Source of the DNA: Thermoanaerobaculum sp.
GTDB lineage: Bacteria > Acidobacteriota > Thermoanaerobaculia > Multivoradales > UBA5704
Assembly (NCBI GenBank): GCA_021154885.1
Contig: JAJKHS010000073.1
Coordinates: forward strand, 1-64,000
Reading direction: 5' to 3'
DNA: 64,000 nucleotides
Shown here: piece by piece, positions 39,132-54,557 of the stretch
How the letters are laid out: each line of letters opens with the position of its first letter
How positions within the stretch are numbered: the stretch's first letter is position 1
Made by a program: the position numbers and the translations under genes
The notes under the pieces: model-generated
The model's input: the letters and a program-made list of their open reading frames with translations, nothing else
Told to the model about the DNA's origin: nothing
Databases searched by the model: none

Positions 39132-39189
39132 CGCGAAGCCTCCCCGTAGTCGACGCGGCGTGGATGCAACGGCCGGGCCAGAGCGGCGC

Positions 39190-39205
39190 CGGAACGCTTC
39201 TTGCA
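39190..39205 (+). promoter_or_regulatory. Sigma-54-type promoter before the export gene
   Basis: CGGAAC-GCTTC-TTGCA keeps the invariant GG (39191-39192) and GC (39203-39204) exactly ten bases apart, with a strong TTGCA -12 element; the -24 element deviates at two positions. About 68 bases before ATG 39273. The leader has a small GGTGA/TCACC hairpin. Confidence 0.5.
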
Positions 39206-39272: not shown

Positions 39273-39878
39273 ATGGGTACCCGAACCCCTGCGATAGCCC
39301 GATTCGCCGCCGTCCTGCTGCTTCTGCTGCCCCTGGTGGGAAGGCCCGCCGCCGGCCAGCCCACCGTCACCCGCGCGGAGGAGGATCCCCCCGACGCCTA
39401 CGGCATCGGCGTCGGCGACGTGCTCGAGATCTCGGTGTGGAAGAACCCGGAGCTCGCGGCCACCGTGCCGGTACGCCCGGACGGCCGCATCTCGGTGCCG
39501 CTGCTGGGCGACGTGCAGGCGGCGGGGCTGACGCCGCTGGCTCTCAAGGCGACGCTGATGCAAGGCTACAAGGAGTACGTCACGGCTCCGGCTGTGTCAG
39601 TGGTGGTCAAGGAGATCCATTCGCGCAAGATCTTCGTCACCGGCGAGGTGGCCCATCCGGGCGCCTACGACCTGCAGCCGCGCACCAAGCTGATGCAGGC
39701 CCTGTCGCTGGCGGGAGGTCTGACCCCCTACGCCCGCGGCAGGGTCGTGCTGCTGCGCGACGGCCACGACGGCAAGTCGGACAAGCGCTTCGAGTACAAG
39801 GTCGACTCGATCATCTCGGGCAAGCGTCCCGAGGACAACGTCCTGCTCCTCCCCGGCGACACCCTCGTGGTCCCCTGA
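39273..39878 (+). CDS. Polysaccharide export protein (Wza/XrtA-type)
   Basis: 201 residues from ATG 39273, preceded by GGAGGAG. Signal peptide (AVLLLLLPLVGRPAAGQ) without a lipobox Cys. Poly_export domain (YGIGVGDVLEISVWKNPELA, VPVRPDGRISVPLLGDVQAA) and one SLBB domain (IFVTGEVAHPGAYDLQPRTK). Short compared with E. coli Wza (379), matching the compact XrtA-associated class. Forms the periplasmic part of the export channel; the outer-membrane pore may be the following barrel protein. Confidence 0.92.
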   Translation: MGTRTPAIARFAAVLLLLLPLVGRPAAGQPTVTRAEEDPPDAYGIGVGDVLEISVWKNPELAATVPVRPDGRISVPLLGDVQAAGLTPLALKATLMQGYKEYVTAPAVSVVVKEIHSRKIFVTGEVAHPGAYDLQPRTKLMQALSLAGGLTPYARGRVVLLRDGHDGKSDKRFEYKVDSIISGKRPEDNVLLLPGDTLVVP

Positions 39879-39907: not shown

Positions 39908-39936
39908 GGGCGGCCTCGCACGGGCCGCCCTCCTTT
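39908..39936 (+). terminator. Candidate terminator after the export gene
   Basis: Perfect 8-bp GC stem, GGGCGGCC (39908-39915) with GGCCGCCC (39923-39930), followed by TCCTTTC. The U tract is weak, so it may be an attenuator or Rho-assisted. Confidence 0.5.
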
Positions 39937-40113: not shown

Positions 40114-40129
40114 TGGCACTCCTCTTGCA
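40114..40129 (+). promoter_or_regulatory. Sigma-54 promoter (-24/-12), near-perfect
   Basis: TGGCAC (40114-40119), five bases, TTGCA (40125-40129): matches the TGGCAC-N5-TTGCW consensus at every conserved base. Start site expected at about 40140-40141. Sigma-54 needs an enhancer-binding protein; in XrtA systems the PrsK/PrsR pair is the known candidate, not encoded in this window. Confidence 0.75.
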
Positions 40130-40140
40130 CTCCGACTGGA

Positions 40141-40350
40141 ACCGCACGGGAATGTCGGGATGGATCGAACAGAATCCTGAGCCGTCGGAATGATTCGGAA
40201 CAAGCGGTAGAAGCTCGTAGGACAGTTTGCGGTGGCCGAGATCCGGTCTCACGAGAGCTGCATCAGGGTAACGGTCTCGATAGCGGTAGATGGCCCTGTA
40301 GGGATCTCGTGAAACCGGCCGAACACTCAAGGGTTCGCGCCGGTTTCCGC
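40141..40350 (+). ncRNA. Candidate structured 5' leader of the barrel-wzz operon
   Basis: From the predicted sigma-54 start to the ribosome binding site, three consecutive closed domains can form. Domain I: ACCGCA (40141-40146) with TGCGGT (40228-40233). Domain II: CGAGATCC (40237-40244) with GGATCTCG (40302-40309), with an inner CGAGA/TCTCG. Domain III: GAAACCGGC (40311-40319) with GCCGGTTTC (40339-40347), extended by CGAAC/GTTCG. A GGAGAAGGAGAGG ribosome binding region follows. It resembles no riboswitch class I can name. Confidence 0.45.
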
Positions 40351-40377
40351 GTCTAGGGAGAAGGAGAGGACGAGCGC

Positions 40378-41727
40378 ATGAGGAGACTGCCGGCATCGGG
40401 TTTGAGGGGGGTGAGCCGCATGGCTGCGCTCCTCGTTCTCGTCGCCGCTCCCGCGATGGCCGGAGAGTTCCGGCTGTTCCTGGAAGGCGAGGCCGGGGTG
40501 CGCAACGACGGCGACTATTCTCAGGGGGATCGCCTGGTGCAGACGGGAGACCAGGCGGTGGGTCGGGCGGGCCTGAACCTGCAGCTCTCCTATCACCGGG
40601 AGCGGCTCGATCTCGCCATGGGGTACTCGCCCGCCTATGAGCGCGGCTTCGATCACCCGGAGCAGCTCTCGGGCCTCACCCACCGTCTCGATTTCGGACT
40701 GATGGGAGACCTGAGCCGGCAGCTCAAGCTCTCGGTGCGGGAGCTGCTCTTCTCCAGCCCGACGCGCGACCTCTATGCGCCCTCGCAGGCCGACACCAAC
40801 GTTGCGAACATCGCGCCGCGGCAGGGCGATCAGCTCGTGCACAACCTCAACGTCCAGCTCGACGACGCCGTGAGCCGCCGCGTCGCGATCCGTGCCGGAG
40901 TCTCCCAGGGTGTGCGTATGTACCGGGGCTCCGGTCTCGCCGACTCGCGGGAGCTCCTCGGCCGGCTGGGCGCCAGCTTCGAGCTCGACCGCGGCCGGCA
41001 AGCCGAGGTCACGGGCGACGTCGGGCGCTACGACTACGGCGACCTCGGCGACGCCAGCGTCCGCACCTTCGGCGTGGCCTGGGCCACCGGCTTGGGCAAG
41101 AGCAGCCGGCTGCGCCTGGAGGCCGGGGGCTACTCCGTGGACTCGCGGCGGCGCGTCCAGCCCCTGGCGGGACAACCGGGACAATCGGGACAACCGGGAC
41201 AGCCGGGCGAGCCGGTCCTGGAGAGCAGCACGGATCAGGGGTGGCGCGGCGGCTTGCAGCTCGCCCGCGATCAGCGGCTCTTCCACTGGACCCTGGGCCT
41301 CTCCCATGACGTCTCGCCGGGGGCGGGTCTGGGCCGGGCGGCGAAGGCGGACAACGCCTTCCTGGGGATCTCCACCACCTCTCTCGGCCGGCGGCTGACC
41401 CTGGCGCTGGATGTCAACGGCTCGCGCCAGCGGGACGTCTCCAGTCAGCTCGGCATGATCGGCATCAATAATCAGCCTGGCACCACCGGCGCGCTCACCG
41501 AGTACGCCGCCGGCACGGCCAGCGCGTCGTGGAGCTTCTGGCCGGGGTTGCGGGCGGTGGGCGGCTACTCCCGGATCTGGCAGCGGTCGCGGGTGGAGCC
41601 TTTTCCCAACCTGTCGTATGGCCGTTATTTCCTGAACCTGGCGTTCCGCATCTTCAGCACGGGGGAGACCCCGCGGCTTCCGGAGCGCCTCGGAGAGCCC
41701 ACGCATGAAGAACCTGACGCTCAGTGA
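40378..41727 (+). CDS. Outer-membrane beta-barrel protein of the polysaccharide locus
   Basis: 449 residues. Signal peptide (MAALLVLVAAPAMAGEF) then alternating amphipathic strands ending in a classic C-terminal strand region (GRYFLNLAFRIF). Position between the export protein and Wzz, and layout, match barrel proteins of XrtA/PEP-CTERM exopolysaccharide loci. Residues about 263-278 are a GQPGQSGQPGQPGEP repeat, encoded by 9-base units, probably in a surface loop. The stop lies inside the start of wzz (23-base overlap). Likely the secretion pore or a PelB/AlgE-like porin, by inference. Confidence 0.7.
   Translation: MRRLPASGLRGVSRMAALLVLVAAPAMAGEFRLFLEGEAGVRNDGDYSQGDRLVQTGDQAVGRAGLNLQLSYHRERLDLAMGYSPAYERGFDHPEQLSGLTHRLDFGLMGDLSRQLKLSVRELLFSSPTRDLYAPSQADTNVANIAPRQGDQLVHNLNVQLDDAVSRRVAIRAGVSQGVRMYRGSGLADSRELLGRLGASFELDRGRQAEVTGDVGRYDYGDLGDASVRTFGVAWATGLGKSSRLRLEAGGYSVDSRRRVQPLAGQPGQSGQPGQPGEPVLESSTDQGWRGGLQLARDQRLFHWTLGLSHDVSPGAGLGRAAKADNAFLGISTTSLGRRLTLALDVNGSRQRDVSSQLGMIGINNQPGTTGALTEYAAGTASASWSFWPGLRAVGGYSRIWQRSRVEPFPNLSYGRYFLNLAFRIFSTGETPRLPERLGEPTHEEPDAQ
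41160..41212 (+). repeat. 9-base tandem repeat inside the barrel gene
   Basis: Successive units GGACAACCG, GGACAATCG, GGACAACCG, GGACAGCCG keep the frame and encode G-Q-P/S triplets. Copy number can change without a frameshift. Confidence 0.8.
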
Positions 41728-43168
41728 GCTGGTCCGCTCGGTCTGGCGGCGCCGCTTCTGGTTCCTCGTCCCGCTGCTGCTCGGCCTGGCCGGGGCCGCG
41801 TATTCCTATCGCGTGCTGCCCAAGACCTATCGCGCCGCCACGCAGGTGCTGGTCGAGCCGCAGAAGGTCCCGTCCGACTACGTCAAGCCGACGGTGACCA
41901 CCTCGATCGAGGAGCGGCTGCACACCATCGAGCCGAAGATCAAGAAGCGCGACAACATGGAGCGGATCATCCGCGAGATGAACCTCTATCCCGAGTTGCG
42001 CGGCACGGTCTCCATGGACCACCTGGTCGACAAGGTGCGCGACGACCTGACGGTGCGCGTCCAGGGGGACACCTTCTTCATCTACTTCGTGGGCCGGGAG
42101 CCGGTGACGGTGGCCCGCACGGCCAACCGGGTGGCCGAGCTGTTCATCGCGAGCAGCCTCCAGCAGCGGGAGAACCGGGCCCAGGGCACCTCGACGTTCC
42201 TGGAGAAGGAGCTGGAACAGACGAAGGCGAAGCTGGAGGGTCAGGAGGCCCGCATCGCCGAGTTCAAGCGGCTGAACCTGGGTGACCTGCCCGAGCAGCG
42301 GGACACCAACCTGCATGCGGTGGAGCAGCTCCAGGGCAAGCTGGAGATCAACATGGATGCCCTGGACCGGGCGGAGACGCGCAAGCTCCTCCTCCAGCGC
42401 CAGGTGGCGGAGCTGAGCTACGCGCCGGCGGCGCGGCCGGCGATGCCGGCGGCGCCCGGCGGCCCGCCGGCGCCGACGCGGGTCGAGCAGCTCCAGGCCG
42501 AGCTCGCCGAGCTGCGCGCCCGCTACACCGACCGCCATCCCGACGTCATCCGCAAGCGGGCCGAGCTGGCCCGCCTGGAGGCGCTGGAGAGCCAGCGGCC
42601 GGTCGAGTCCCCGGCCGCCGCGGCCACGCAGGCGCCCGGCGAGCCGCCGGCGCCGAAGAAGCCGAAGATCGATCCCATGACCCAGGCGGAGCTGGCCTCG
42701 GTGGACCTGGAGATCAAGAGCCTCAAGGGCGAGCGCGAGCGCATCCTGGCCGACATCGGCGGCGTCCAGAGCCGCCTGCAGAACGTGCCGCGGGTGGAGC
42801 AGGAGCTGCTGTCGCTGACCCGCGACTACGACAACATCAAGCGCTCCTATGAATCGCTGCTGGACAAGCGGCTGAACGCCCGGCTGTACGAGAACCTGGA
42901 GAAGAGCCAGCAGGGCGAGCAGTTCACCATCCTCGAGGCGGCGCTGCCGCCGACCGGCCCGTACAGCCCCAACCTGCTGATCGTGCTGGGCCTGGGCCTC
43001 GCCATGGGCGGCCTCGCCGGTCTGCTGCTGGCGCTCCTGCGCGAGCGCACCGATCCCACCTACGCGGATGCCCTGTCGCTGCAGCAGGCGTTCCCCGGCG
43101 TGCCGCTGCTCGCCACCATCCCTGTTTTCCAAGGCGGGCGGACGGCCCCCGGTACCTGGAGGAAGTGA
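41705..43168 (+). CDS. Polysaccharide chain-length determinant (Wzz, XrtA-type)
   Basis: 487 residues. N-terminal membrane helix (about 18-36, FWFLVPLLLGLAGAAYSYRV), long periplasmic coiled coil with an unusual Ala/Pro-rich insert around 240-320, the GNVR-like region (NVPRVEQELLSLTRDYDNIK), and a C-terminal helix (LLIVLGLGLAMGGLAGLLLA). Sets polymer length with the cytoplasmic kinase encoded next. The full GNVR and Wzz domains agree with the XrtA-associated subfamily. Confidence 0.92.
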   Translation: MKNLTLSELVRSVWRRRFWFLVPLLLGLAGAAYSYRVLPKTYRAATQVLVEPQKVPSDYVKPTVTTSIEERLHTIEPKIKKRDNMERIIREMNLYPELRGTVSMDHLVDKVRDDLTVRVQGDTFFIYFVGREPVTVARTANRVAELFIASSLQQRENRAQGTSTFLEKELEQTKAKLEGQEARIAEFKRLNLGDLPEQRDTNLHAVEQLQGKLEINMDALDRAETRKLLLQRQVAELSYAPAARPAMPAAPGGPPAPTRVEQLQAELAELRARYTDRHPDVIRKRAELARLEALESQRPVESPAAAATQAPGEPPAPKKPKIDPMTQAELASVDLEIKSLKGERERILADIGGVQSRLQNVPRVEQELLSLTRDYDNIKRSYESLLDKRLNARLYENLEKSQQGEQFTILEAALPPTGPYSPNLLIVLGLGLAMGGLAGLLLALLRERTDPTYADALSLQQAFPGVPLLATIPVFQGGRTAPGTWRK

Positions 43169-43171
43169 GAC

Positions 43172-43909
43172 ATGGAGCTGCCCGTGAGGACCGAGATGCC
43201 GCATCGCCTCCGCGACCTGGGCCCGTCGCGCCGGGTGCAACTGCGCGAGGACGCGCCGGTGATCAATTACCTGGATCCACCGTCCTACGCCGCCGAGCAG
43301 TACCGCGGCCTCGCCGTGCAGGTGGAGGAGAGGATCAATCCGCTGGGCTCCCAGGGTTATGCCCTGACCGTGACCAGTCCGGAGGAGGGGGCGGGCAAGA
43401 CGCTCACCAGCCTCAACCTGGCGATGACGCTGACCCGTGGCGAGGAGCGGCGCGTGCTGCTGCTCGAGGGAGACCTCTGGCGGCCGCAGCTCCACACCTA
43501 TTTCGTCCCGGAGCGAACGGACCGTCCCGGGCTGCAGCAGGTGCTGGAGCGGCGGATCGCGCTCGGCGACGCCGTGATCTCCCTGAATGGGAGCAGCCTC
43601 GACGTGCTGCTCGCCGGCTCCGCGGGGGTCTCGGGCGACGTGATGTCGGGCCGCCGCATGTCGGAGGTGCTCAACGAGGCGCGGGCCGCCTACGAGGTGG
43701 TGATCATCGACTCGCCGCCCATGAACCTGCTGGCCAGCGCGCGGTCGCTCGCCGCCCGGTCGGATGGCGTGGTGCTGGTGGTGCGGGCGGGGCAAAGCAA
43801 GAAGTGGGCGATCGAGAAGACGCTGTCGGCCCTCGGGCCGGAGAAGCTCATCGGCGCGGTGCTCAACGGTGCGCGCATCTCAGAGCGCGGGTACCGCGGG
43901 TATTACTAG
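43172..43909 (+). CDS. CpsD/Wzc-type tyrosine autokinase
   Basis: 245 residues. BY-kinase: Walker A at 69-77 (SPEEGAGKT), Walker A' region LLLEGDLWRPQL, Walker B EVVIIDSPP and a C-terminal tyrosine cluster (YRGYY) for autophosphorylation. Walker A' has EGD where most members have DAD or DCD. Separate from Wzz, three bases downstream, as in Gram-positive and XrtA systems. Controls polymer length and export. Confidence 0.9.
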   Translation: MELPVRTEMPHRLRDLGPSRRVQLREDAPVINYLDPPSYAAEQYRGLAVQVEERINPLGSQGYALTVTSPEEGAGKTLTSLNLAMTLTRGEERRVLLLEGDLWRPQLHTYFVPERTDRPGLQQVLERRIALGDAVISLNGSSLDVLLAGSAGVSGDVMSGRRMSEVLNEARAAYEVVIIDSPPMNLLASARSLAARSDGVVLVVRAGQSKKWAIEKTLSALGPEKLIGAVLNGARISERGYRGYY

Positions 43910-43924
43910 GAAAGGGAAAGGCAG

Positions 43925-45319
43925 ATGATCAGGCTGTTCAATCGCTATTGGGCCCTGCCGGCCGCGGTGTCGCTGCTGGTCGAGGGGATGCTGCTGCTCT
44001 CCGCGGTCTACTGCGCCACCCAGCTCCGGCTCGGCCTCGTCAGCCCGGGCACGGTGCCGGCGCAGTTCGACCTGCTGCGGGAGGCGGTGGCCTTCGCGGT
44101 GGCGGGCCTGCTGTCGCTCTATGCCAACGGCCTCTACGACTTCGGCGAGCGGCTGAGCGCCCGGTTGCTGCTCATCCGTCTGCTGCGCAGCTTCTCCATC
44201 CTGGCGGTGACCTGCTGGGCGATCTACTTCCTGATCCCCACGGTGCAGACGGGGCGCGGCATCTTCGCCCTGGCCTTGGTCTTCGGCGCCTCCTTCGTCC
44301 TCGCCTGGCGGGTGCTGCTGAGCTGGATGCTGCGCGGCGAGGGCTTCGCCGAGCGGGTGCTCATCGTGGGCTCCGACGCCAAGGCGATCGACATCGCCCG
44401 CGAGACCCTCCACCGCAAGCACCTGGGCTATCGCGTCGTCGGCTTCCTCGACGACGATCCCGCCCTGCAGGGGGTGAGCCTCATCAACCCGCGGGTGATC
44501 GGCACCACGGGCCAGGCCTGCCAACTGGCGCTCCAGCACGGCGCCACCCGCGTCGTGGTGGCGGCCATCGACTACCGGGGCCGGCTCAGCATGGACGCCC
44601 TGCTGGATTGCAAGACCCGTGGCATCCGCGTGCAGGAGGGCTCGAGCTACTACGAGCAGCTCACGGGCAAGATCATGATCGAGGGGCTGCGCAAGTCGTG
44701 GCTCATCTTCTCCGACGGCTTCCGGGTCTCCCGCGGCGCCCTGTTCGCCAAGCGGCTGCTGGACCTCGTGGCGGCCACCGTGGGCCTGGTGCTGGCGGCG
44801 CCGCTGATGCTGCTGGTGGCGCTCGCCGTGCGGCTCGACTCGCCGGGGCCGGTCTTCTTCCGCCAGGACCGGGTGGGCCGCGGCGGCCGTGAGTTCACCC
44901 TCTGGAAGTTCCGCTCCATGCGCACCGACGCCGAGGCCGGCGGCGCCCAGTGGGCAATTGCGGGCGATCCGCGGGTCACCCGCGTCGGGCGCTTCATCCG
45001 CAAGACCCGGCTCGACGAGCTGCCGCAGCTCTGGAACGTGCTGGTGGGCGACATGAGCCTGGTGGGTCCCCGCCCCGAGCGCAAGCTGTTCGTCGAGCAG
45101 CTCAAAGAGGGCTGCCCCTACTACGAGCAGCGGCTGGTGGTGCGCCCGGGGCTCACCGGCTGGGCGCAGGTCAAGGCGCCCTACGCCTCCACCTTCGAGG
45201 AGTCGATCGAGAAGCTCAAGTTCGACCTCTACTACATCAAGAACCTGTCGTTGTTCCTGGACGTCTCGATCCTGCTCTCCACGGCCAGGATCGTGCTCCT
45301 TGGACGAGGTGCCCGATGA
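43925..45319 (+). CDS. Polyprenyl-phosphate sugar phosphotransferase (initiating enzyme)
   Basis: 464 residues. Four to five N-terminal membrane helices, a central CoA/NAD-binding-like domain (RVLIVGSDAKAIDIA), another helix (about 280-300) and the C-terminal bacterial sugar transferase domain: FFRQDRVGRGGREFTLWKFR, RKTRLDELPQLWNVLVGDMS, VGPRPERK and RPGLTGWAQV. Transfers the first sugar-1-phosphate to undecaprenyl phosphate. ATGA overlap with the next gene. Confidence 0.94.
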   Translation: MIRLFNRYWALPAAVSLLVEGMLLLSAVYCATQLRLGLVSPGTVPAQFDLLREAVAFAVAGLLSLYANGLYDFGERLSARLLLIRLLRSFSILAVTCWAIYFLIPTVQTGRGIFALALVFGASFVLAWRVLLSWMLRGEGFAERVLIVGSDAKAIDIARETLHRKHLGYRVVGFLDDDPALQGVSLINPRVIGTTGQACQLALQHGATRVVVAAIDYRGRLSMDALLDCKTRGIRVQEGSSYYEQLTGKIMIEGLRKSWLIFSDGFRVSRGALFAKRLLDLVAATVGLVLAAPLMLLVALAVRLDSPGPVFFRQDRVGRGGREFTLWKFRSMRTDAEAGGAQWAIAGDPRVTRVGRFIRKTRLDELPQLWNVLVGDMSLVGPRPERKLFVEQLKEGCPYYEQRLVVRPGLTGWAQVKAPYASTFEESIEKLKFDLYYIKNLSLFLDVSILLSTARIVLLGRGAR

Positions 45320-46710
45320 GCCCGACGAGCGAGCCGGCTCCGCAGAACGACGCGGCGACCTCCCCGCGGGCTCCCGTGGACCTGCTGCACCACGTCGCGC
45401 GCCCCCGGGCTGGCCTGCGCATCCTCTATCTCTGTCACCGCGTCCCCTATCCGCCGGACAAAGGGGAGAGGATCCGCGCCTTCCACCAGGTCCAGGGCCT
45501 GGCCCGCCGCCACCGCATCCACCTGCTGGCGCTCGCCGACGGCGAGCTGCCGGACCTGGGGCCCCTGAAGGCCCTCTGCGAGCGAGTGGAGGTCTTCCCC
45601 CTGAACCGCACGGCGGCCTACGCGCGGGCGGCCTTGGGAGCGCTCCGGCCGCGCCCCTTCAGCCTGTCGTTCTTCGAGTCGAAGGAGCTCGCCGGCCGGC
45701 TGCGGGAGCTGGCCCGCCGCGAGCGGTTCGACGTGGTGATGGTCTACTGCTCGGCCATGGCGCCCTGCGCCGAGCTGCTGCCGGAGGTGCCGGCGGTGCT
45801 CGACATGGTGGACGTGGACTCGGCCAAGTGGGCCCAGTACGCCCGTTTCGCCCCGCTCCCCCTGCGCCCGGTCTACGCCCTCGAGGCGCGGCGGCTGCGG
45901 CGCTACGAGGCATCGCTCGCCGGGCGCTTCCAGAAGATCTTCCTCGCCACCGGCAACGAGACCCGGCTGTACAAGGCCAACGCGCCGGGGGCGCCGGCGG
46001 CCACCGTCCTGTCCGGCGTCGACGTCGACTACTTCCAGCCTCTGGACCTGCCGAAGGCGACCGCGCCGACCCTGGTGTTCACCGGCCAGATGGACTACTT
46101 CGCGAACGTCGACGGCATCGTCCATTTCGCCCGCGAGGTCTTCCCGCGCCTGCGCCGTCGCATCCCCGACGTCGAGCTGCTGGTGGTGGGCCGCTCGCCG
46201 GTGCCGGCCGTGCGCGACCTGGGCGAGCTGCCCGGCGTGCAGGTGACTGGCGCCGTGGGGGACGTGCGGCCATTTCTCGCCCGCGCCTGGATGTTCGTGG
46301 CGCCGCTGCGCATCGCCCAGGGGGTGCAGAACAAGGTGCTGGAGGCCATGGCCTCGAACCTGCCCGTGGTGTGCAGCGAGCGGGTGCTGGCAGGGGTCGC
46401 CGACGGCGGTTTCCGCAGCGGCCGGGACCTGCTGGCCGCCGGCACCGACGACACCGACGCGGAAATGGAGAATGCCGTCGCCTCCCTGATCGGCGATGCA
46501 GAGCTGCGGGAGCGCCTCGCCGCGAGCGCCCGGCAGCGGCTCCTGGCCACCTACCGCTGGGGGTCCAGCCTGGACCGTCTGGAGGAGCTGGTGGGAGCGG
46601 CGTCCCGGCCGCCGGCGGGCTTGCCTCCCGCCGGGCATCCCGAGGACGAAGAAGGGGCCGCGAGATCCGCCATCGCCGCCACGGGCGCCGGGGAGGCGCG
46701 CCGTGCGTGA
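45316..46710 (+). CDS. GT4 glycosyltransferase (XrtA-associated type)
   Basis: 464 residues from ATG 45316 (ATGA overlap). A 35-residue N-terminal extension precedes RILYLCHRVPYPPDKGERIR, a hallmark of the exosortase A-associated sugar transferase group. C-terminal donor site FTGQMDYFANVDGIVHFARE, VGDVRPFLARAWMFVAPLRI and QGVQNKVLEAMASNLPVVCS. Adds a sugar at the cytoplasmic face. The C-terminal 40 residues are low complexity. Confidence 0.88.
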   Translation: MSPTSEPAPQNDAATSPRAPVDLLHHVARPRAGLRILYLCHRVPYPPDKGERIRAFHQVQGLARRHRIHLLALADGELPDLGPLKALCERVEVFPLNRTAAYARAALGALRPRPFSLSFFESKELAGRLRELARRERFDVVMVYCSAMAPCAELLPEVPAVLDMVDVDSAKWAQYARFAPLPLRPVYALEARRLRRYEASLAGRFQKIFLATGNETRLYKANAPGAPAATVLSGVDVDYFQPLDLPKATAPTLVFTGQMDYFANVDGIVHFAREVFPRLRRRIPDVELLVVGRSPVPAVRDLGELPGVQVTGAVGDVRPFLARAWMFVAPLRIAQGVQNKVLEAMASNLPVVCSERVLAGVADGGFRSGRDLLAAGTDDTDAEMENAVASLIGDAELRERLAASARQRLLATYRWGSSLDRLEELVGAASRPPAGLPPAGHPEDEEGAARSAIAATGAGEARRA

Positions 46711-48037
46711 CCTGGTGATCGTGGGCATCGTCTGCGCCTCGCTGCCGCTGATCGTCTACCGTCCCTTCTTCGGGCTGCTGGTCTACGGCTGGCTGGCCTA
46801 CATGCGCCCCCAGGACATGGGCTGGGGGCTCACCCAGGAGATGCCCCTCTCCCAGTGGGTGGCCGTCGCCATGGTGCTCGGCCTGGTCCTCGCCCTGGGC
46901 CGCGAGCGCTGGATGGTGATGCGGCTGCAGACGGTGCTGCTCATCCTGCTGGCGGGCTGGATCAGCCTGTCGACCGTCATGGCGGTCCTGCCCGACGTCG
47001 CCGGCACGATGTATGGCTACTACTGGAAGGCGATCCTCATCAGCATTCTCACCACCGGCCTGGTGGCCGACCGCCGGCGCTTCCGCATCCTGCTGATCCT
47101 CATCACCTTCTCCATCGGCGTGCTGGGAGCCAAGCGCGGCCTCGTCGGCCTGATGGTGGGCGGCATCCGCTACTACGACGGTCCGGGCGGCTTCATGTCG
47201 GACAACAACAGCTTCGCCCTGGTTCTCAACATGGTGATCCCTCTGCTGGTGGGCATCGCCATGGTCGAGAAGGAGAAGTGGCTGCGCGTGACGGCCCTGG
47301 TCATGGCCTCCCTCTGCGCCATCACCGTGCTCTTCACCTTCTCCCGCGGCGGCTTCCTCACCCTGGCCTGCGTGGTGCCGGCGCTGATCTGGCGCACGCG
47401 CCACCGGCTGGCGGTGTTCGCCCTGGTGGGGCTGGTCGCCGCGGGCGTCGTCTGGTTCACCTCCGCCGCCTTCACGGAGGCCTACACCGAGCGGACGTCG
47501 AGCATCTCCGACTATGAGGAGGACGGCTCCGCCCGCGGCCGGCTCAACGCCTGGACGACCTCGTGGCGGGTGTTCCTCGACTACCCCGCCTTCGGCGTCG
47601 GACCCAACAACCTGCAGATCGTGCACCCGCGCTACTCGCCCGACCCCAACCGTTTCCGGGTGTCGCACAACGCCTACCTGCAGGTGCTGGCCGAGTGCGG
47701 CCTGCCGGCGCTGGCGCTCTTCGTGGCGGTCATCGTCTCGGGCCTCGTCTCCCTGGGCCGGCTGCGGCGGTCGACGGACCTGCCGTGGGTAGAGGTCTAC
47801 GCCCGCATGATGCAGATCTCCATCCTCGCCTACGTGGTGGGCAGCATGTTCCTCAACACCGCCTACTCGGAGCTGATCTACCAGCTCGTGGCGATGAGCG
47901 TGAGCCTCGAGCTGGCGGCGCGGGCCGCGGCGGCGGCGCCGGAGTCGGAGAGCGAGCCCGCCCCGGCGATCTCCGGGACGTCCGACGAGCCGTGGTGGCG
48001 CCGGCCGGCTGCGATCTCGCCAGCGGGGAGGGCCTGA
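46703..48037 (+). CDS. O-glycosylation/O-antigen ligase, exosortase A-associated type
   Basis: 444 residues from GTG 46703, chosen for GGGGAGG just upstream. About ten membrane helices. N-terminal DUF5935-like part (YRPFFGLLVYGWLAYMRPQD) and the Wzy_C loop (VFLDYPAFGVGPNNLQIVHP, RVSHNAYLQVLAECGLPALA). In XrtA loci this protein is proposed to glycosylate sorted proteins; here no sorted substrate is visible, so it may act as a polysaccharide polymerase or ligase. Confidence 0.88.
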   Translation: MRDLVIVGIVCASLPLIVYRPFFGLLVYGWLAYMRPQDMGWGLTQEMPLSQWVAVAMVLGLVLALGRERWMVMRLQTVLLILLAGWISLSTVMAVLPDVAGTMYGYYWKAILISILTTGLVADRRRFRILLILITFSIGVLGAKRGLVGLMVGGIRYYDGPGGFMSDNNSFALVLNMVIPLLVGIAMVEKEKWLRVTALVMASLCAITVLFTFSRGGFLTLACVVPALIWRTRHRLAVFALVGLVAAGVVWFTSAAFTEAYTERTSSISDYEEDGSARGRLNAWTTSWRVFLDYPAFGVGPNNLQIVHPRYSPDPNRFRVSHNAYLQVLAECGLPALALFVAVIVSGLVSLGRLRRSTDLPWVEVYARMMQISILAYVVGSMFLNTAYSELIYQLVAMSVSLELAARAAAAAPESESEPAPAISGTSDEPWWRRPAAISPAGRA

Positions 48038-48040
48038 TCC

Positions 48041-49990
48041 ATGTGCGGCATCGCCGGCCTCTTCCTCTACGGCCAGCCGGGCCTCGTCCGCCGCGAGGAG
48101 CTGGCGCGCCTGGTTGGCCCCCTGCGCCACCGCGGGCCGGACGACCAGGGCTACCTCCTCGCCGGGCCCCTGGGTCTCGGCCACGCTCGCCTGTCGATCA
48201 TCGACCTCGGCGGCGGTCACCAGCCGATCTTCAACGAGGACCGCACCGCCGCCGTGGTCTGCAACGGTGAGATCTACAACCACCGCGAGCTGCGCGGCGA
48301 GCTCCAGGGGCGGGGGCACCGCTTCGCCACCGGCTCGGACAGCGAGGTGATCGTCCATCTCTGGGAGGAGATGGGGCCGCGCTGCGTCGGGCGGCTCGCC
48401 GGCATGTTCGCCCTCGCGGTCGCCGACCTGCGCCAGCGCACCCTGCTGCTGGCCCGCGACCGGGTGGGCAAGAAGCCCCTCTACGTGGCCGACGATGGCC
48501 GGCGCGTGGGCTTCGCCTCGGAGCTCAAGTCGCTCCTCGCCGGCGGCCTCGTGCAACCCGAGGTCGACCCCGAGGCGCTGGACCTCTACCTCGCCTACGG
48601 CTACGTGCCGTCGCCGTGGACGATCTTCCGCGGCGCGGCCAAGCTGCCGGCGGGCCATCTGGCCGTGTGGAGCGAGACCGGCGCCCGCATCGAGCGCTAC
48701 TGGGACCTCGCCGCCGAGCCCGCGGCCGATGCCGGTCCGGAAACCGACGAACGCCTGACGTCCGAGCTCGAGCGGCTCCTCGGCCGCGCCGTGGCGGACC
48801 GGCTGGAGAGCGACGTGCCGCTGGGGGCCTTCCTCTCCGGCGGCATCGACTCAGGGGTCGTGGTGTCGCTGATGAGCGACGCCCTGGCCGCGCCGGTGCG
48901 CACCCACACCGTGGGCTTCGCCGACCGCGCCACCGACGAGCGGGAGGACGCCGCCGCCGTGGCCCGCGCCCTGGGCACGGATCACGTGGAGACGGAGGTC
49001 CGGCCCGACCTCGCCGGCGTGCTGCCGAAGATCGCCTGGCACCTCGACGAGCCCTTCGCGGACCCGTCGGCCGTGCCCACCTGGTACGTCTCGCAGGAGA
49101 CCCGCCGGCGGGTGACCGTGGCGCTCTCGGGCGACGGCGGCGACGAGCTGTTCGCCGGCTATCGCGACAAGTACGCCCTGCACCTGCTGGAAGCCCGGCT
49201 GCGCGGCCTGCTGCCGGCGGCGGTGCGCGAGGGGGTGTTCCCCGTCCTCGCCCGGCACTGGCCCCGCTCGCCGCGCCTGCCCCGGCCCCTGCGGCTCGCG
49301 ACGATGCTGGGCAACCTCTCGATGACGCCTGAGCGCTCCTACTTCGCCGACCGCTGCCTGATCCCGGCCCACCTGGAGGAGCGGCTGTTCGGCGAGGGGC
49401 TGCGGGCGCGCCGGCGGCGGTTCGACCCGTTCTCCGCTCTCGAGCCCCACCTCGCCCGCGCGCCGCGCGAGCCGCTGGCCCGCGCCCTCTACCTCGACTT
49501 CAAGACCTGGCTGGCCGACGACGGACTGGTGAAGGTGGACCGCATGAGCATGGCCCACGCCCTGGAGGTGCGCTGCCCGTTGCTCGACCACCGGGTGGTG
49601 GAGCTCGCGGCGCGGGTGCCCGCCCGGCTCAAGCTGGACGGCACCCGCAGCAAGGTGCTGCTGCGCCGGGTGGCCGCGCGCCGGCTGCCGGCCGAGATCC
49701 TCAATCGACCCAAGCGCGGCTTCGCGCCACCGGTCTCCCGCTGGTTGCGCGAGGACCTGCGGGACTTCGCCCGCGACCTGCTGCTCGCCTCCGACGCCTT
49801 CGGCCGCGACCTCTTCGACCGCCGCGAGCTGGCGCGCCTCTTCGACGACCACGAGGCGCGCCGGCTGGAGGCGGGGTGGGCCCTGTGGACGCTGCTGATG
49901 CTGGAGCTGTGGGGGCGGGAGGTGGCGCGCCAAGCGCCCTCCGCCGCGATCGGAGAGGATGAGGAGGTGGCCCGTGCGGTCAGCGCGTGA
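48041..49990 (+). CDS. AsnB-type amidotransferase, copy 2 (XrtA amidotransferase 1-like)
   Basis: 649 residues. Cys2 nucleophile (MCGIAGLFLYGQ), RHRGPDDQGYLL, CNGEIYNHRELRGEL, and synthetase loop SGGIDSG starting at 266 (the usual second Ser is Gly), followed by SGDGGDELFAGYRDKYAL. Long form with the C-terminal extension seen in the exosortase A-associated amidotransferase group. Four bases after the ligase gene; overlaps the next gene by 17 bases. Confidence 0.92.
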   Translation: MCGIAGLFLYGQPGLVRREELARLVGPLRHRGPDDQGYLLAGPLGLGHARLSIIDLGGGHQPIFNEDRTAAVVCNGEIYNHRELRGELQGRGHRFATGSDSEVIVHLWEEMGPRCVGRLAGMFALAVADLRQRTLLLARDRVGKKPLYVADDGRRVGFASELKSLLAGGLVQPEVDPEALDLYLAYGYVPSPWTIFRGAAKLPAGHLAVWSETGARIERYWDLAAEPAADAGPETDERLTSELERLLGRAVADRLESDVPLGAFLSGGIDSGVVVSLMSDALAAPVRTHTVGFADRATDEREDAAAVARALGTDHVETEVRPDLAGVLPKIAWHLDEPFADPSAVPTWYVSQETRRRVTVALSGDGGDELFAGYRDKYALHLLEARLRGLLPAAVREGVFPVLARHWPRSPRLPRPLRLATMLGNLSMTPERSYFADRCLIPAHLEERLFGEGLRARRRRFDPFSALEPHLARAPREPLARALYLDFKTWLADDGLVKVDRMSMAHALEVRCPLLDHRVVELAARVPARLKLDGTRSKVLLRRVAARRLPAEILNRPKRGFAPPVSRWLREDLRDFARDLLLASDAFGRDLFDRRELARLFDDHEARRLEAGWALWTLLMLELWGREVARQAPSAAIGEDEEVARAVSA

Positions 49991-51425
49991 GACCCGGACC
50001 CGGGTGACCCATGTCACCCGGATACTGCTCTTCAGCACCGTCTTTCCCAACGCCGCCCAGCCGACCCACGGCCTCTTCGTGCGCGAGCGGATGCGGGGCC
50101 TGCCGGTGGACGACGTGGAGGTGCGGGTGGTGGCCCCGACGCCCTGGTTCCCCTTCGTCTCCGGCCTGCGTCCCGGGCTGCGGCCGCAGGTGCCGCGCGC
50201 GGAGACGCAGGACGGCGCGCCCGTGCTCCACCCCCGGTTCCTCTCCTTCCCGGGCATCCTCAAGTGCCTGGACGGCCTCCTCCTGTTCCTCTCGACGCTG
50301 CCCACCCTGGTGCGGCTGCGGCGGGAGTTCCGCTTCGACGTGATCGACGCCCACTTCATCTATCCCGAGGGGCTGGCCGCGGCGCTGGCGGGCCTCGTCT
50401 TCCGGGTGCCGGTGGTGATCACCCTGCGCGGCATGCTCCCCCTGCTCGCGCCCTACCGGCTGCGCCGGCCGCAGCTCCGCTTCGCCCTGCGGCGGGCGGC
50501 GCGCATCATCGCCGTCTCCGAGTCGCTGCGCCGCGACGCCGTGGCCCTCGGGGTGCCGGCGGAGCGGGTGCGGGTGATCGGCAATGGCGTCGATCCTGAG
50601 CTCTTTCACCCCCTGGACCGCACCGAGTCGCGGCGGGCTTTGGGACTGGCCAAGTATGGCCCGCTCCTCGTCTCGGTGGGGACGCTGGCGCCGCGCAAGG
50701 GCTTCCATCTCGTGATGGAGGCGATGGCGAAAATGAAACATCGCGGACATCGCTGGCCGACCCTGCGCTTCGCCGTGATCGGGGGCAACGGCACCGAGGG
50801 AGCCATGGAATCCGAGCTGCGGGCTCTGGCCGATCGGCTGGGGATCGCCGACCGGGTGATCTTCGCCGGCCCGCGGCGCGGCGAGGAGCTGGCTCGCTGG
50901 TACTCCGCCGCCGACCTCTTCGTGCTGGCGAGCGGCCATGAAGGGTGCCCCAACGTCGTCCTGGAAGCCCTGGCCTGCGGCACGCCGGTGGTGGCGACGC
51001 CGGTGGGCGACGTCCCCGAGCTGATCTCGCCCGCCAGCGGCCTGCTGGTGGAGCGGGACATCAAGTCGATCGTGGCTGGTCTCGACGCGGCGCTACGACG
51101 GGCCTGGGACCGTGATGCGATCGCCGCCCGGGTGTCCGGCCGGAGCTGGCGGGTGGTGGGGAGAGAGGTCGGGGAGGAGCTGCTGGCGGCGGTCGCGACC
51201 TTCGCCTCAGAGCGCCCCCGCCCGAGGGCCCTCACCCCTGTCCCCTCTCCCGCCCCCACCCACCCCCCTCTCCGGGAGAGGGGAACCCGGTTGGAGCGCT
51301 CTTGCTGGTCTCCCTCTTCTCCCGGGGAGGGGGGTTGGGAGGGGGCGGGAGAAGAGGGCCGGGGTGATGAGGGTCTTGGGCGGATCGCGGGGATCGGCGC
51401 CGGTCTGAGAGAGACGACCCCATGA
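49974..51425 (+). CDS. GT4 glycosyltransferase with a repeat-derived tail
   Basis: 483 residues from GTG 49974, five bases after a near-perfect GAGGAGGTGG; ATG 49959 is the alternative. GT-B fold: FSTVFPNAAQPTHGLFVRER, DVIDAHFIYPEGLAAAL, VGTLAPRKGFHLVMEA, ASGHEGCPNVVLEALACGTP (E-x7-E). The natural end is near residue 415; the last 65 residues are encoded by the REP-like element at 51231-51376 and are Pro/Gly/Glu-rich. ATGA overlap with the next gene. Confidence 0.88.
   Translation: MRSARETRTRVTHVTRILLFSTVFPNAAQPTHGLFVRERMRGLPVDDVEVRVVAPTPWFPFVSGLRPGLRPQVPRAETQDGAPVLHPRFLSFPGILKCLDGLLLFLSTLPTLVRLRREFRFDVIDAHFIYPEGLAAALAGLVFRVPVVITLRGMLPLLAPYRLRRPQLRFALRRAARIIAVSESLRRDAVALGVPAERVRVIGNGVDPELFHPLDRTESRRALGLAKYGPLLVSVGTLAPRKGFHLVMEAMAKMKHRGHRWPTLRFAVIGGNGTEGAMESELRALADRLGIADRVIFAGPRRGEELARWYSAADLFVLASGHEGCPNVVLEALACGTPVVATPVGDVPELISPASGLLVERDIKSIVAGLDAALRRAWDRDAIAARVSGRSWRVVGREVGEELLAAVATFASERPRPRALTPVPSPAPTHPPLRERGTRLERSCWSPSSPGEGGWEGAGEEGRGDEGLGRIAGIGAGLRETTP
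51231..51376. repeat. REP-like inverted repeat, copy B
   Basis: Same architecture as 37814-37957, with the central CCCCTCTCCGGGAGAGGGG and the right half CTCCCGGGGAGGGGGGTTGG, flanked by GGTGATGAGGGTCTT. Lies entirely inside the 3' end of the GT4 frame without breaking it. Confidence 0.75.
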
Positions 51426-52660
51426 AGATCCTCTACCACCACCGCACCCGGGCCGGCGACGCCCAGGGGATCCACATCGCCGAGATCCAGCGCGCCTTCC
51501 GCCTGCGCGGCCACGACGTGCGCGAGGTGGCGCTGGTCGAGGCCGGGGCCGAGGCGAAGGCGGCGAGCGACGGCGGCGAGGCCCGGGGGCTCGCGGGGCT
51601 CGCCTCCCGCGCCGCCGGCCACCTGCCGCTCCCTCTGCGCGAGGGGCTGGAGCTCGGCTACAACGCCGTGGCCTACCGCCGGCTCTCGAAGGCCATCCGC
51701 GACTTCCGCCCCGACTTCGTCTACGAGCGCTACGCCGCCAACACCTTCGCGGGCCTCGCGGCGGCGCGGCGGCACGGCGTCCCCTTCGTGCTGGAGGTCA
51801 ACTCCCCCTTGGCCCTGGAGAAGGCGCGCCACGACGGCCTGTTCTTCCGCGGCCTCACCCGCCGGGTCGAGCGCCGGCTCTGCGCCGGGGCGGACGTGAC
51901 GATCGCCGTCACCCGCGTGCTGGCCGGCATCCTGGAACAAGAAGGAGTTCCGATGGGCAAAGTCGTGGTGATGCCCAACGGCGTGCGTAGCGGCTTCGGT
52001 CAAGGAGGCGACGGCGCCGCGTTCCGCCGTTCCCGCGGCATCCCCTTGGACGTGCCGGTGGCTGGCGTCGTCGGCTGGTTCCGCCCCTGGCACGACCTGG
52101 AGCGGCTGGTGGCGGCGGTGGCCTCGCCCGCCTGGCGCGAGGCGCGCATCCATCTCATCCTGGTCGGCGACGGCCCGGCGCTGCCCGGCCTGCGCGAGCT
52201 GCGGGCCGCCTCGCCGGACCTCGCCGAGCGGCTGGTGCTCTGCGGTGCCGTGCCGCGGCAGGAGATCGAGTCGGCGTTGGCGGCCTTCGACGTCGCCGTG
52301 CAGCCGGCGGTGACCCCCTACGCCTGCCCGATGAAGATCCTGGAGTACATGGCCGCCGGCCGCGCCATCGTCGCGCCCGGCGCGGCCAACGTGCGAGAGC
52401 TGTTGACCGACGGCGAGACCGCGCTGCTCTGCCCAGGGGACGAGAACCCAGCGGCGGCGGACCTGGGGGCCGCCGTCCTCGCCCTGGTGCGCGACCCGGC
52501 GTTGCGCGTGCGCCTGGGCGAGGCCGTTCGGCGACGCCTCCACGAGCGGGGCTGGCTCTGGGAGGAGAACGCGCGGCGGGTCGAGGAACTGGTCTTGCAA
52601 GTACGTCAGCGCCCGGCGGCTGCCGTCGCCGTGCCGGGCCGGGAGGTGAGATCGTGCTGA
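51422..52660 (+). CDS. GT4 glycosyltransferase
   Basis: 412 residues. KILYHHRTRAGDAQGIHIAE at the N-terminus matches the exosortase A-associated GT4 group that starts this way. Donor half has VGWFRPWHDLERLVAAVA, LCGAVPRQEIESALAAFDVA and ACPMKILEYMAAGRAIVAPG. Starts on the previous stop (ATGA) and ends overlapping the deacetylase by seven bases. Confidence 0.88.
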   Translation: MKILYHHRTRAGDAQGIHIAEIQRAFRLRGHDVREVALVEAGAEAKAASDGGEARGLAGLASRAAGHLPLPLREGLELGYNAVAYRRLSKAIRDFRPDFVYERYAANTFAGLAAARRHGVPFVLEVNSPLALEKARHDGLFFRGLTRRVERRLCAGADVTIAVTRVLAGILEQEGVPMGKVVVMPNGVRSGFGQGGDGAAFRRSRGIPLDVPVAGVVGWFRPWHDLERLVAAVASPAWREARIHLILVGDGPALPGLRELRAASPDLAERLVLCGAVPRQEIESALAAFDVAVQPAVTPYACPMKILEYMAAGRAIVAPGAANVRELLTDGETALLCPGDENPAAADLGAAVLALVRDPALRVRLGEAVRRRLHERGWLWEENARRVEELVLQVRQRPAAAVAVPGREVRSC

Positions 52661-53484
52661 ACGCTTTTTCCGTCGACGTCGAGGACTACTTCCAGGTGGG
52701 AGCTTTCGAGCGGGCCATCCCCCGCGACACGTGGGGAGGGTTCCAGCCGCGGGTGGAGCGCAACACGCAGCGCCTGCTGGCCCTGTGCGAGAAGCACCAG
52801 GTGCGCGGCACCTTCTTCGTCCTCGGCTGGGTGGCCGAACGCTGGCCGGAGATGGTGCGCGCCATCCGCGACGCCGGCCACGAGCTGGGCACCCACGGCC
52901 AGGACCACCGCCGGGTGACCACCCTGAACCCGCGCGAGTTCCGGGAGGACGTCCGCCGCTCCAAGCGGACCATCGAGGACGTGGCCGGGGTCGAGGTCAT
53001 CGGCTACCGCGCCCCCAACTACTCGATCGTGCGGGAGACCCTGTGGGCCGTGGACGTCCTGAGCGAGGAGGGGTTCCAGTACGACTCCAGCATCTTCCCC
53101 ATCCGGCACGACCACTACGGCATCCCCGACTTCCCCCGCTTCCCGCAGCCGGTGAAGACTGGGAACGGCTCGGCGCTGCAGGAGTTCCCCATCTCCACCC
53201 TCCGCTTCGCCGGCATGAACCTGCCGTTCGTGGGCGGCGGCTACCTGCGCCAGTTCCCCATGCAGTTCATCCGCTGGGGAATGCGCCACCTGAACCAGCG
53301 CGAGCGGCGGCCGGCCATCGTCTACATCCACCCCTGGGAGCTGGACCCGGAGCAGCCGGTGCAGCCCGTGGGTGTCCTCACCCGGCTGCGCCACTACCGC
53401 AACCTGGACCGCACCGAGGACCGGCTGGCGACGCTCTTCTCCGAATACGCCTTCACCTCGTGCCGGGAGATCCTGGGCCTATGA
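52654..53484 (+). CDS. Polysaccharide deacetylase with DUF3473 (XrtA-type)
   Basis: 276 residues from GTG 52654. NodB-like fold: FSVDVEDYFQVGAFERAIP carries the catalytic Asp, HELGTHGQDHRRVT the metal His pair, IGYRAPNYSI the third motif, and IHPWELDPEQPVQP the DUF3473 C-terminus. No signal peptide, as in this subfamily. Presumably de-N-acetylates the glycan or its lipid-linked precursor in the cytoplasm. Stop overlaps the FemAB ATG. Confidence 0.94.
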   Translation: MLNAFSVDVEDYFQVGAFERAIPRDTWGGFQPRVERNTQRLLALCEKHQVRGTFFVLGWVAERWPEMVRAIRDAGHELGTHGQDHRRVTTLNPREFREDVRRSKRTIEDVAGVEVIGYRAPNYSIVRETLWAVDVLSEEGFQYDSSIFPIRHDHYGIPDFPRFPQPVKTGNGSALQEFPISTLRFAGMNLPFVGGGYLRQFPMQFIRWGMRHLNQRERRPAIVYIHPWELDPEQPVQPVGVLTRLRHYRNLDRTEDRLATLFSEYAFTSCREILGL

Positions 53485-54557
53485 GCGCCGAGCCCCTCGT
53501 CTACGTCGAGCCGTCGCCGGTGACCGTGGAGACGTTGCGTCCGTTGCGAGAGGCCGAGTGGGACCGTTATGTGCGCCAGAATCCCGACGGCACCTTCTTT
53601 CACCAACTCGGCTGGCGCTGGCTGGTGGAGCGGGTCTTCGGCCACCGTGCCCACTACCTGACCGCCCTGCGCGACGGCCGCATCGCGGGCGTGCTCCCCC
53701 TCTTCGAGCTCCAGAGCCTGCTCTTCGGCCACTCCCTGGTCTCCATCCCCTTCGCCATCGGCGGCGGCATTGCAGCCAATGACGGCGATGGGGAGGCCGC
53801 CTCGGCCCTGCTGGAGGCGGCCCGCAACCTGGCCGAAGAGCGGGAGGTGGACTACCTGGAGCTGCGCTCCGAGCGCCCCCTGCCGGACTCCGGCCTGCTC
53901 GCCAAGGACCTCTACGTCACCTTCCGCGCCGACCTGGCGGAGGGCGAGGAGGCGCTGCTCAAACGGATGGAGCGCAAGCGGCGGCAGATGATGAATTACG
54001 TCTCCCGAGCGGGGTTCACCCACCGGGTGGCGGGCCTGGAGGAGCTCCCTCTCTTCTACGACCTCTTCTGCCAGAACATGCGGCACCACGGCACGCCCGT
54101 CTACCCGCGCCTCTTCCTCCAGGAGATCCTGGACCGCCATCCGGGGACGACCCATCTCTTCTTCGTCGAGCACGAGGGGAGGACGGTCGCAGGAGTGCTC
54201 AACCTCCTCTTCCGCGACGTGATCATGCCCTTCTACGCCGGAGCCGCCCGCGCGCAGCGCCCGCGCGGGGTGGACGATTACACCTACCTCGCCATCCTGC
54301 GCTGGGGGCGGGATCACGGTTTCCGCCTCTTCGACTTCGGCCGCAGCAAGCGGGGCACCGGCGCCTGGGACTTCAAGCGCCGATGGGGGATGGAGGAGGT
54401 GCCGCTGGGCTACCAGTACCACCTGGTGAAGGCCCGCGAGCTGCCCAACGTCAGCCCCGCCAACCCCAAGTACCAGGCGGCCATCCGCGTCTGGCAGAAG
54501 CTCCCCCTGCCCCTCACCCGCCTGCTGGGACCCATGATCGTCAAACGGGTACCCTGA
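53481..54557 (+). CDS. FemAB-like GNAT protein (XrtA-type)
   Basis: 358 residues from ATG 53481. Two tandem GNAT-like halves as in FemAB/FemX: ADLAEGEEALLKRMERKRRQ, FYDLFCQNMRHHGTPVYPRL, HLFFVEHEGRTVAGVLNLLF and FDFGRSKRGTGAWDFKRRWG. The family moves aminoacyl groups in cell-wall synthesis; the PEP-CTERM-associated subgroup always lies next to the DUF3473 deacetylase, as here, so it may acylate the freed amino group. Inference. Confidence 0.9.
   Translation: MSAEPLVYVEPSPVTVETLRPLREAEWDRYVRQNPDGTFFHQLGWRWLVERVFGHRAHYLTALRDGRIAGVLPLFELQSLLFGHSLVSIPFAIGGGIAANDGDGEAASALLEAARNLAEEREVDYLELRSERPLPDSGLLAKDLYVTFRADLAEGEEALLKRMERKRRQMMNYVSRAGFTHRVAGLEELPLFYDLFCQNMRHHGTPVYPRLFLQEILDRHPGTTHLFFVEHEGRTVAGVLNLLFRDVIMPFYAGAARAQRPRGVDDYTYLAILRWGRDHGFRLFDFGRSKRGTGAWDFKRRWGMEEVPLGYQYHLVKARELPNVSPANPKYQAAIRVWQKLPLPLTRLLGPMIVKRVP

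Follow-up and report, generated by a model that had tools for sequence, protein, structure and literature searches.

An unclassified leader with predicted competing helices between a sigma-54 promoter and an exopolysaccharide operon in Thermoanaerobaculum

The window analysed here, a 64,000-nucleotide stretch of Thermoanaerobaculum DNA, belongs to a genome (G000) of 8.2 Mb that is 96.6% complete. The gene order at the locus is an export protein (39273-39878), the leader, a 449-amino-acid protein (40378-41727, plus strand), a Wzz-type chain-length determinant, a tyrosine autokinase, a sugar transferase and glycosyltransferases. The exopolysaccharide genes that follow the 449-amino-acid protein (41705-54557, plus strand) comprise Wzz, the tyrosine autokinase, an EpsB_2 sugar transferase, stp1, an O-ligase, an amidotransferase and a FemAB protein. 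In this cluster TIGR03013, TIGR03087, TIGR03097 and TIGR03019 were matched above the NCBIfam cut-off, and the export, chain-length, kinase and amidotransferase proteins matched NCBIfam models of the XrtA/PEP-CTERM type at scores under the cut-off. Judged by these family matches, the downstream cluster is of the XrtA/PEP-CTERM exopolysaccharide type. The 449-amino-acid product of the first gene of the operon has homologs in 3 of 59 genomes, its own included, all of this genus; it had been called a barrel protein in the initial annotation, a name that found no backing, as no Pfam or NCBIfam family was matched at an E-value of 0.001. Upstream of its start codon is a purine-rich sequence, AGGGAGAAGGAG (40355-40366, plus strand), taken from its composition as the putative ribosome-binding region. 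Just 3' of the export gene, at 39908-39930, an inverted repeat (GGGCGGCC/GGCCGCCC) is followed by TCCTTTC; by eye this resembles a terminator with an imperfect T-run, and the terminator scan made no call there.

A sigma-54 (RpoN) promoter of the form TGGCAC-N5-TTGCA is located at 40114-40129 on the plus strand. The sequence TGGCACTCCTCTTGCA starts at 40114 in the window, its counterpart in both relatives (G001 and G002) is TGGCACCCCTCTTGCA, and transcription is predicted to start near 40141. RpoN is encoded in the genome of the window, where the exact pattern TGGCACN5TTGCW occurs at 23 sites, compared with 3 for a reversed control pattern. By these comparisons the site at 40114-40129, which had already been proposed as a sigma-54 promoter, is real and conserved. 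With a looser score, in which at least 10 of 12 positions match, 6 sigma-54 sites were found in the window, one of which, on the minus strand at 39180, equals the promoter with a score of 11. This divergent site (TGGCCCGGCCGTTGCA, 39165-39180, score 11/12) faces a methyltransferase-like ORF on the minus strand, and inspection by eye shows TGGCC and GTTGCA retained at this place in the relatives. A poorer, non-canonical site, CGGAACGCTTCTTGCA (39190-39205, plus strand; CGGCGCGCTTCTTGCA in the relatives), precedes the export gene in all three genomes with its GG and GC conserved, which suggests a second sigma-54 promoter in the locus.

The leader, the gene order and the sigma-54 site are common to three genomes of one genus of uncultured soil Acidobacteriota: that of the window, G001 and G002. 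These three genomes represent effectively two lineages, and the support that they lend to the leader structure is good but shallow. Identity between the window and the relatives is 88-94% over the promoter, 69-71% over the core (40166-40272) and 79-81% over the 3' hairpin, compared with 39-51% in the noncoding DNA just upstream and 65-66% at third codon positions of the export gene. On these figures the leader is constrained relative to its noncoding neighbour, and its core lies just slightly above third codon positions. The long structured leader that had been proposed downstream of the export gene was borne out, as was its conservation in relatives.

Model R1 matched the leader in 3 of 148 genomes of the class, its own included, all of this genus. 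Among 396 genomes of the phylum, an even draw in which G001 and G002 are not among the matches, R1 returned its own genome plus two matches of marginal score, at E 0.033 and 0.039; these were put down to chance, since each falls within a long ORF of an unrelated locus. A pattern scan of genome contigs gave 10 stretches, 2 of which are the known relatives; the other 8, along with 2 stretches from viral contigs, had no R1 match at an E-value of 1, and a single-protein scan of genome contigs confirmed no homolog. The export protein was matched in 19 of 21 genomes, its own included, and at the one locus outside the genus that was inspected (G020) no such sigma-54 site or leader was seen by eye between the export gene and Wzz. 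When the whole window was compared with Rfam, the leader had no match at gathering score, in agreement with the earlier statement that it fits no known RNA family, and relaxing the E-value limit to 10 added nothing but weak matches that fall far short of gathering scores. No description of this leader was found in open PMC papers. Elsewhere in the window, Acido-Lenti-1 RNA and 6S RNA (1024-1068 and 16027-16208) matched Rfam above their gathering scores.

Three consecutive, independent domains had been drawn in the leader by the initial annotation: a 6-bp pair (40141-40146/40228-40233), an 8-bp pair (40237-40244/40302-40309) and a 9+5-bp hairpin (40311-40324/40333-40347). Each of these complementary segments is present in the sequence, with one unpaired C at 40338 breaking the 9+5 helix. 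The hairpin is conserved and probable, with mean ensemble probabilities of 0.82 for the 9 bp and 0.99 for the 5 bp, whereas the 6-bp and 8-bp pairs are neither conserved nor predicted and were rejected as domains, since their partners are non-complementary in the relatives by eye and their mean probabilities are 0.003 and 0.001. Watson-Crick stems of at least 6 bp are no commoner between 40141 and 40377 than in shuffled sequences (5 seen, 5.7 expected, counting maximal stems), which makes the 6-bp pair trivial. At 8 bp or more there are 3 stems, compared with 0.36 expected in shuffles. The third of these, UCACGAGA/UCUCGUGA (40249-40256/40305-40312), was absent from the earlier drawing and by inspection is the inner part of a helix designated 2:3; the 8-bp pair takes pieces of segments 2 and 3 in a different register. 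A folding energy no better than that of shuffled sequence had been named as grounds for refuting the three-domain leader. The whole window leader indeed did no better than its shuffles (z -0.06; 93 of 200 fold as well), but its elements 2:3 and 3:4 proved unusually stable, while the whole leaders of the relatives fold better relative to shuffles (z -1.94 and -2.94). Instead of three independent domains, it is the overlapping helices 1:2, 2:3 and 3:4 that are conserved.

Helix 2:3 (40243-40318, plus strand) joins CCGGTcTCACGAGA (40243-40256) to TCTCGTGAaACCGG (40305-40318) through 13 of 14 pairs, and in the window it carries P3 (CAGGG 40264-40268/CCCTG 40294-40298). The same region in the relatives pairs CCGGTTC/GAACCGG, CAC/GTG, GGCAT/ATGCC and CCAGGG/CCCTGG, and the outer complementarity (CCGGT/ACCGG or CCGGTTC/GAACCGG) is kept in all three genomes. 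Compared with 1000 shuffles, the energy of 2:3 gave z-scores of -3.75 in the window, -2.93 in G001 and -2.91 in G002; other cuts gave -2.10 (window, inner part), -3.45 (G001) and -0.26 (G002 minus the outer pairs, not significant). An additional, variable domain, which the window lacks, sits between the strands of P3 in the relatives (L003 and L004); the tip of the 2:3 stem can thus accommodate an insert. Helix 3:4 (40311-40347, plus strand) is the 9+5 hairpin, GAAACCGGCCGAAC/GTTCGcGCCGGTTTC; all 14 of its 14 pairs are kept, one of them through a compensatory change of C-G to U-A. With its flanks, 3:4 scored z -3.60, -5.40 and -6.94 against 1000 shuffles in the window, G001 and G002 respectively, and z -2.39, -3.58 and -5.33 in other cuts. 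When 2:3 and 3:4 were considered jointly, with test coordinates picked after the folds were seen, none of 2000 shuffles reached the stability of both in any of the genomes. A possible lower stem of 3:4, CCCT 40294-40297/AGGG 40355-40358 (plus strand), appeared in the local fold of the window, but its probability over the full leader is 0.00. The lower stem of the relatives is another one, ATGCC/GGCGT, and is strong, with probabilities of 0.99 and 1.00.

The 5' part of the leader folds less firmly. Helix 1:2 (40214-40255, plus strand) consists of CTCGT 40214-40218/ACGAG 40251-40255 with inner GGAC and TTTG pairs, and as modelled it would sequester segment 2. Its local z-scores are -0.13 in the window, -2.45 in G001 and -2.11 in G002, significant in the relatives only, and its probabilities in the full leader are 0.00, 0.91 and 0.03; in a longer cut of the window another fold wins. 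Hairpin P1 (40170-40198, plus strand) is formed by GAAT/ATTC in the window and CGAT/ATCG in the relatives, with two compensatory pairs in the fitted alignment described below. Its local fold is weak (z -0.66 in the window, -0.10 and -2.04 in the relatives) and its mean pair probability in the whole window leader is 0.004. Two base differences between G001 and G002 fall in P1; they change a candidate peptide and leave the RNA pairs intact.

Pair probabilities, as computed at equilibrium, were followed along the length of the transcript in the three genomes. In a transcript ending just before segment 4, outer 2:3 has a probability of 0.97 in the window, 1.00 in G001 and 0.99 in G002; in one ending just after the 3:4 core, these values are 0.00, 0.01 and 0.00, and 3:4 stands at 0.95, 0.94 and 0.95. 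Outer 2:3 and 3:4 therefore exclude each other in all three genomes, while exclusion of the entire 2:3 is complete in the relatives only. In the window, inner 2:3 coexists with 3:4 at 0.94-0.97 in transcripts 0-10 bases past the 3:4 core; ten bases past it, inner 2:3 is at 0.94 and P3 at 0.96, falling to 0.60 and 0.64 in the complete leader. In the relatives P3 and P4, or inner 2:3, are down to 0.00-0.01 at full length. The full-length leaders have 3:4 at 0.96, 0.99 and 1.00 (window, G001 and G002) and outer 2:3 at no more than 0.01. With each state enforced in the window, 40 coding bases included, the ensemble energies are -98.4 and -100.2 kcal/mol, 1.8 kcal/mol apart; G001 and G002 favour 3:4 by 5.9 and 8.8 kcal/mol. 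As a product of modelling, the evidence for overlapping stable stems and for their computed exchange is strong.

The evidence for covariation is moderate as judged from the alignments. A structure (A11) was drawn from G001 and G002 alone, with the window left out, and converted into covariance model R2, which matches the window at 40167-40347 with 74.5 bits; a sequence-only model from the same alignment (R3) matches it in two pieces of 36.4 and 13.9 bits, a comparison qualified by the unequal effective sequence numbers of the two models. In the fitted three-row alignment, which is biased towards the structure, 97.3% of cells pair and there are 5 compensatory pairs in three helices (two in P1, two in P4 and one in P5, which is 3:4); slid versions of the alignment gave 0-1 such pairs, and 5 of 500 shuffles reached the observed value. 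A plain MAFFT alignment, made without structural realignment, kept 44 pairs where 37.7 were expected (P 0.026) and had no excess of doubly changed pairs that remain paired (3 kept, 2.5 expected, P 0.47). For the 5' part, a plain alignment of three rows gave counts no higher than those of shuffles, 157 of 500 of which reach the covariation score. Both compensatory pairs of P4 are two bases off the register of the window's own best stem: in the model register the pair probability of P4 in the window is 0.001, and the inner stem in its own register has 0.60.

What lies between the promoter and the operon is an unclassified leader of a small lineage, with competing helices. Our main reading, which is drawn from modelling and to which we assign a probability of roughly one half, is that it acts in cis as a lineage-specific, attenuator-like switching leader. 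Its sequence and conservation suggest that the sigma-54 promoter would start transcription of a 237-base leader. As the RNA emerges, segment 2 (40243-40259) would pair forward with segment 3 into the long stem 2:3 carrying P3, and once segment 4 has been made, the 3:4 hairpin, placed just before the ribosome-binding region, would displace outer 2:3. In the relatives, not in the window, the lower stem of 3:4 would then displace the remainder of 2:3. Its position immediately ahead of the ribosome-binding region is why we take 3:4 to be the probable low-expression state. As 3:4 wins at equilibrium, 2:3 would have to be held by a signal or through slow exchange; some signal that holds 2:3 or drives 1:2 would presumably set the outcome, and the output would be premature termination or reduced translation. 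Sensing might be done by a ligand or protein that acts on P1/1:2, or by a ribosome positioned on either of two short ORFs.

With respect to the output, no intrinsic terminator with a U-tract was called in any of the three leaders (tails GTCTAGGG, GTTTTTGG and GTCTTAGG), and a classical terminator at 3:4 is not supported. Accessibility of the ribosome site in the window does not favour 2:3 (0.68 versus 0.68, and 0.43 in 2:3 versus 0.57 in 3:4); it favours 2:3 in G001 (0.55 versus 0.41) and in G002 (0.75 versus 0.49). These computations support a hidden ribosome site for the relatives and not for the window.

The leader could instead be a static structure, with P3/P4 and 3:4 side by side protecting the mRNA, holding a standby site or binding a protein, and with the outer 2:3 overlap as a mere folding intermediate. 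The coexistence of inner 2:3, P3 and 3:4 in the window, the fit to the window of R2, in which P4 and 3:4 occur together, and the dominance of 3:4 at full length in all three genomes would all be expected of such a leader. However, outer 2:3 complementarity would not be needed there and is kept in all three genomes, and the full-length fold of the relatives abolishes P3 and P4 (0.00-0.01); we regard a static leader as unlikely, if still credible.

Ribosome-coupled attenuation, in which the position of a ribosome on a short leader peptide chooses the helix as in trp or erm leaders, also appears unlikely. All three leaders have a 13-codon ORF near P1 (at +12, +20 and +17), and a doubtful candidate ORF runs over segment 2 from TTG to TAA (40227-40271, plus strand; 14 codons, 15 in both relatives). 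The latter has an SD-like AGGA, a TTG start and a TAA stop in all three genomes, its frame is restored after a 2-base plus a 1-base deletion, and coupling would account for the conserved CAGGGTAA. Nevertheless, the starts are TTG, an SD is missing from the first ORF of the window leader, there is no run of control codons, and a restored stop-free frame has sizeable odds of arising by chance. Substitutions in the segment-2 ORF fall mostly at first positions and change the peptide; by eye, the eight codons past the frame restoration differ between the window and G002 by 3 first-, 1 second- and 1 third-position changes, which is not a coding pattern.

It is doubtful that the leader is a processive-antitermination or elongation signal for a long operon and no switch at all, in the manner of the B. 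subtilis EAR/epsC RNA, LoaP leaders or RfaH/JUMPstart. Its position ahead of a long exopolysaccharide operon would suit this role, the genome encodes elsewhere a NusG-domain protein of specialised appearance, and GCGGTAG, which we take to be the core of the ops element, was seen by eye twice in the window leader (40204-40210 and 40283-40289). Against it, there is no Rfam match to epsC, the NusG-like gene is outside the cluster, and GCGGTAG is missing by eye from the leaders of the relatives, so that no conserved ops element was found among the three.

We consider it improbable that the conservation reflects a DNA function, such as a sigma-54 initial transcribed region or activator or repressor sites, with the folds as by-products of inverted repeats. 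Only two lineages are compared, the whole-leader fold is no better than shuffles and the blind covariation test is marginal, all of which would fit; the five compensatory pairs across three helices, the reach of conservation more than 200 bases downstream of the promoter beside less conserved upstream noncoding DNA, and the stability reached jointly by two overlapping stems in each of the three genomes do not. It is very improbable that the sigma-54 promoter drives a small RNA some 210 bases long with its end at 3:4, the operon being expressed by read-through or from another promoter. Such an RNA would make sense of the leader having its own promoter, of a strong 3' hairpin and of the five T that follow the hairpin in G001, but the T-run is broken in G002 and absent in the window, and scans of 701 bases per genome called neither a terminator nor a sigma-70-like promoter in any of the three.

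Read as an attenuator-like switch, the leader appears by analogy nearest in logic to the trp-type attenuators and nearest in set-up to the nas leaders with ANTAR antiterminators. The attenuators of trp-type amino-acid operons are 1:2/2:3/3:4 leaders, and the present leader resembles them in that its segments have more than one predicted partner, so that 2:3 competes with 3:4, and 1:2 with 2:3. Unlike them, it lacks a canonical terminator tail and a convincing control-codon peptide, exclusion in the window is partial, and it belongs to a sigma-54 promoter and an exopolysaccharide operon. The Klebsiella nasF and Paracoccus nasA leaders are described, in the available text of PMC7496416 and PMC5424462, as served by ANTAR antiterminators; according to the same text they share with this leader the pairing of Ntr-linked expression with a leader that controls read-through, about 200 bp long in Paracoccus nasA. 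The ANTAR target is given, in the corresponding part of PMC7496416, as two hairpins whose hexaloops prefer A1 and G4 with a terminal C:G pair. This signature (two hexaloop hairpins, A1, G4 and a C:G closing pair) was not seen by eye in the leader folds. A search of the genome for ANTAR domains carries no weight either way, as all 14 of its controls came out negative. The epsC/EAR RNA (RF01735) is likewise a structured RNA in an exopolysaccharide operon, as far as the available portions of PMC2864571 and PMC7858274 describe it, and has no sequence or structure match to the leader. Nor did c-di-GMP riboswitches match the leader at the Rfam gathering score. Leaders of the pgaA type are controlled by CsrA; no CsrA match was found in the 96.6%-complete genome, by a search whose control was positive in only 3 of 14 known genomes.

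In Proteobacteria, a sigma-54 motif precedes PEP-CTERM protein genes at a mean of 71 nt from the start codon, as reported in the available text of Haft and colleagues for the PEP-CTERM/PrsR system (PMC1569441). The PrsR regulon thus resembles the present locus in having a sigma-54 (-24/-12) promoter in an exosortase-associated system, going by the available parts of PMC1569441 and PMC9850573, which mention no RNA switch or RNA element. Here, unlike in that regulon, the operon is one for exopolysaccharide and its first gene begins about 250 bases after the promoter. The best match to PrsR (TIGR02915) in the genome scored 416.3 bits, compared with a cut-off of 502.6, among 23 matches above 200 bits.

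Exopolysaccharide helps soil bacteria to stick and to survive drying. A more ambitious version of the switching-leader reading, which we put forward as a tentative possibility, is that the leader represents a new class of sensor RNA (a riboswitch or a protein-responsive element) in Acidobacteriota and acts after initiation as a gate on an XrtA-type exopolysaccharide operon driven by sigma-54, P1 and 1:2 sensing and the 2:3/3:4 exchange being the output. If so, the operon would answer to two signals in series, and the leader, as a second gate acting at the RNA level, would constitute a new point of control. For exosortase-linked systems, the available text of PMC1569441 and PMC9850573 describes sigma-54 control at the promoter level, and a genome survey predicted attenuators in phyla such as Acidobacteria, almost none of which has an associated function in the part of that report available (PMC2965389).

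The NusG-domain protein mentioned above is 199 amino acids long, is RfaH/UpxY-like by eye, and is encoded at 1138-1737 of L078 (G000:C82) beside a metalloprotease-like ORF. No further NusG was reported by the genome search, so the housekeeping copy was either missed or lies in a gap. All 23 sigma-54 sites of the genome were scanned for downstream ORFs, and three leaders were folded. By eye, two of these sites (L061 and L071) lie ahead of pilin-like ORFs, and at another (L076) an NAD-epimerase-like ORF is found 258 bases downstream.
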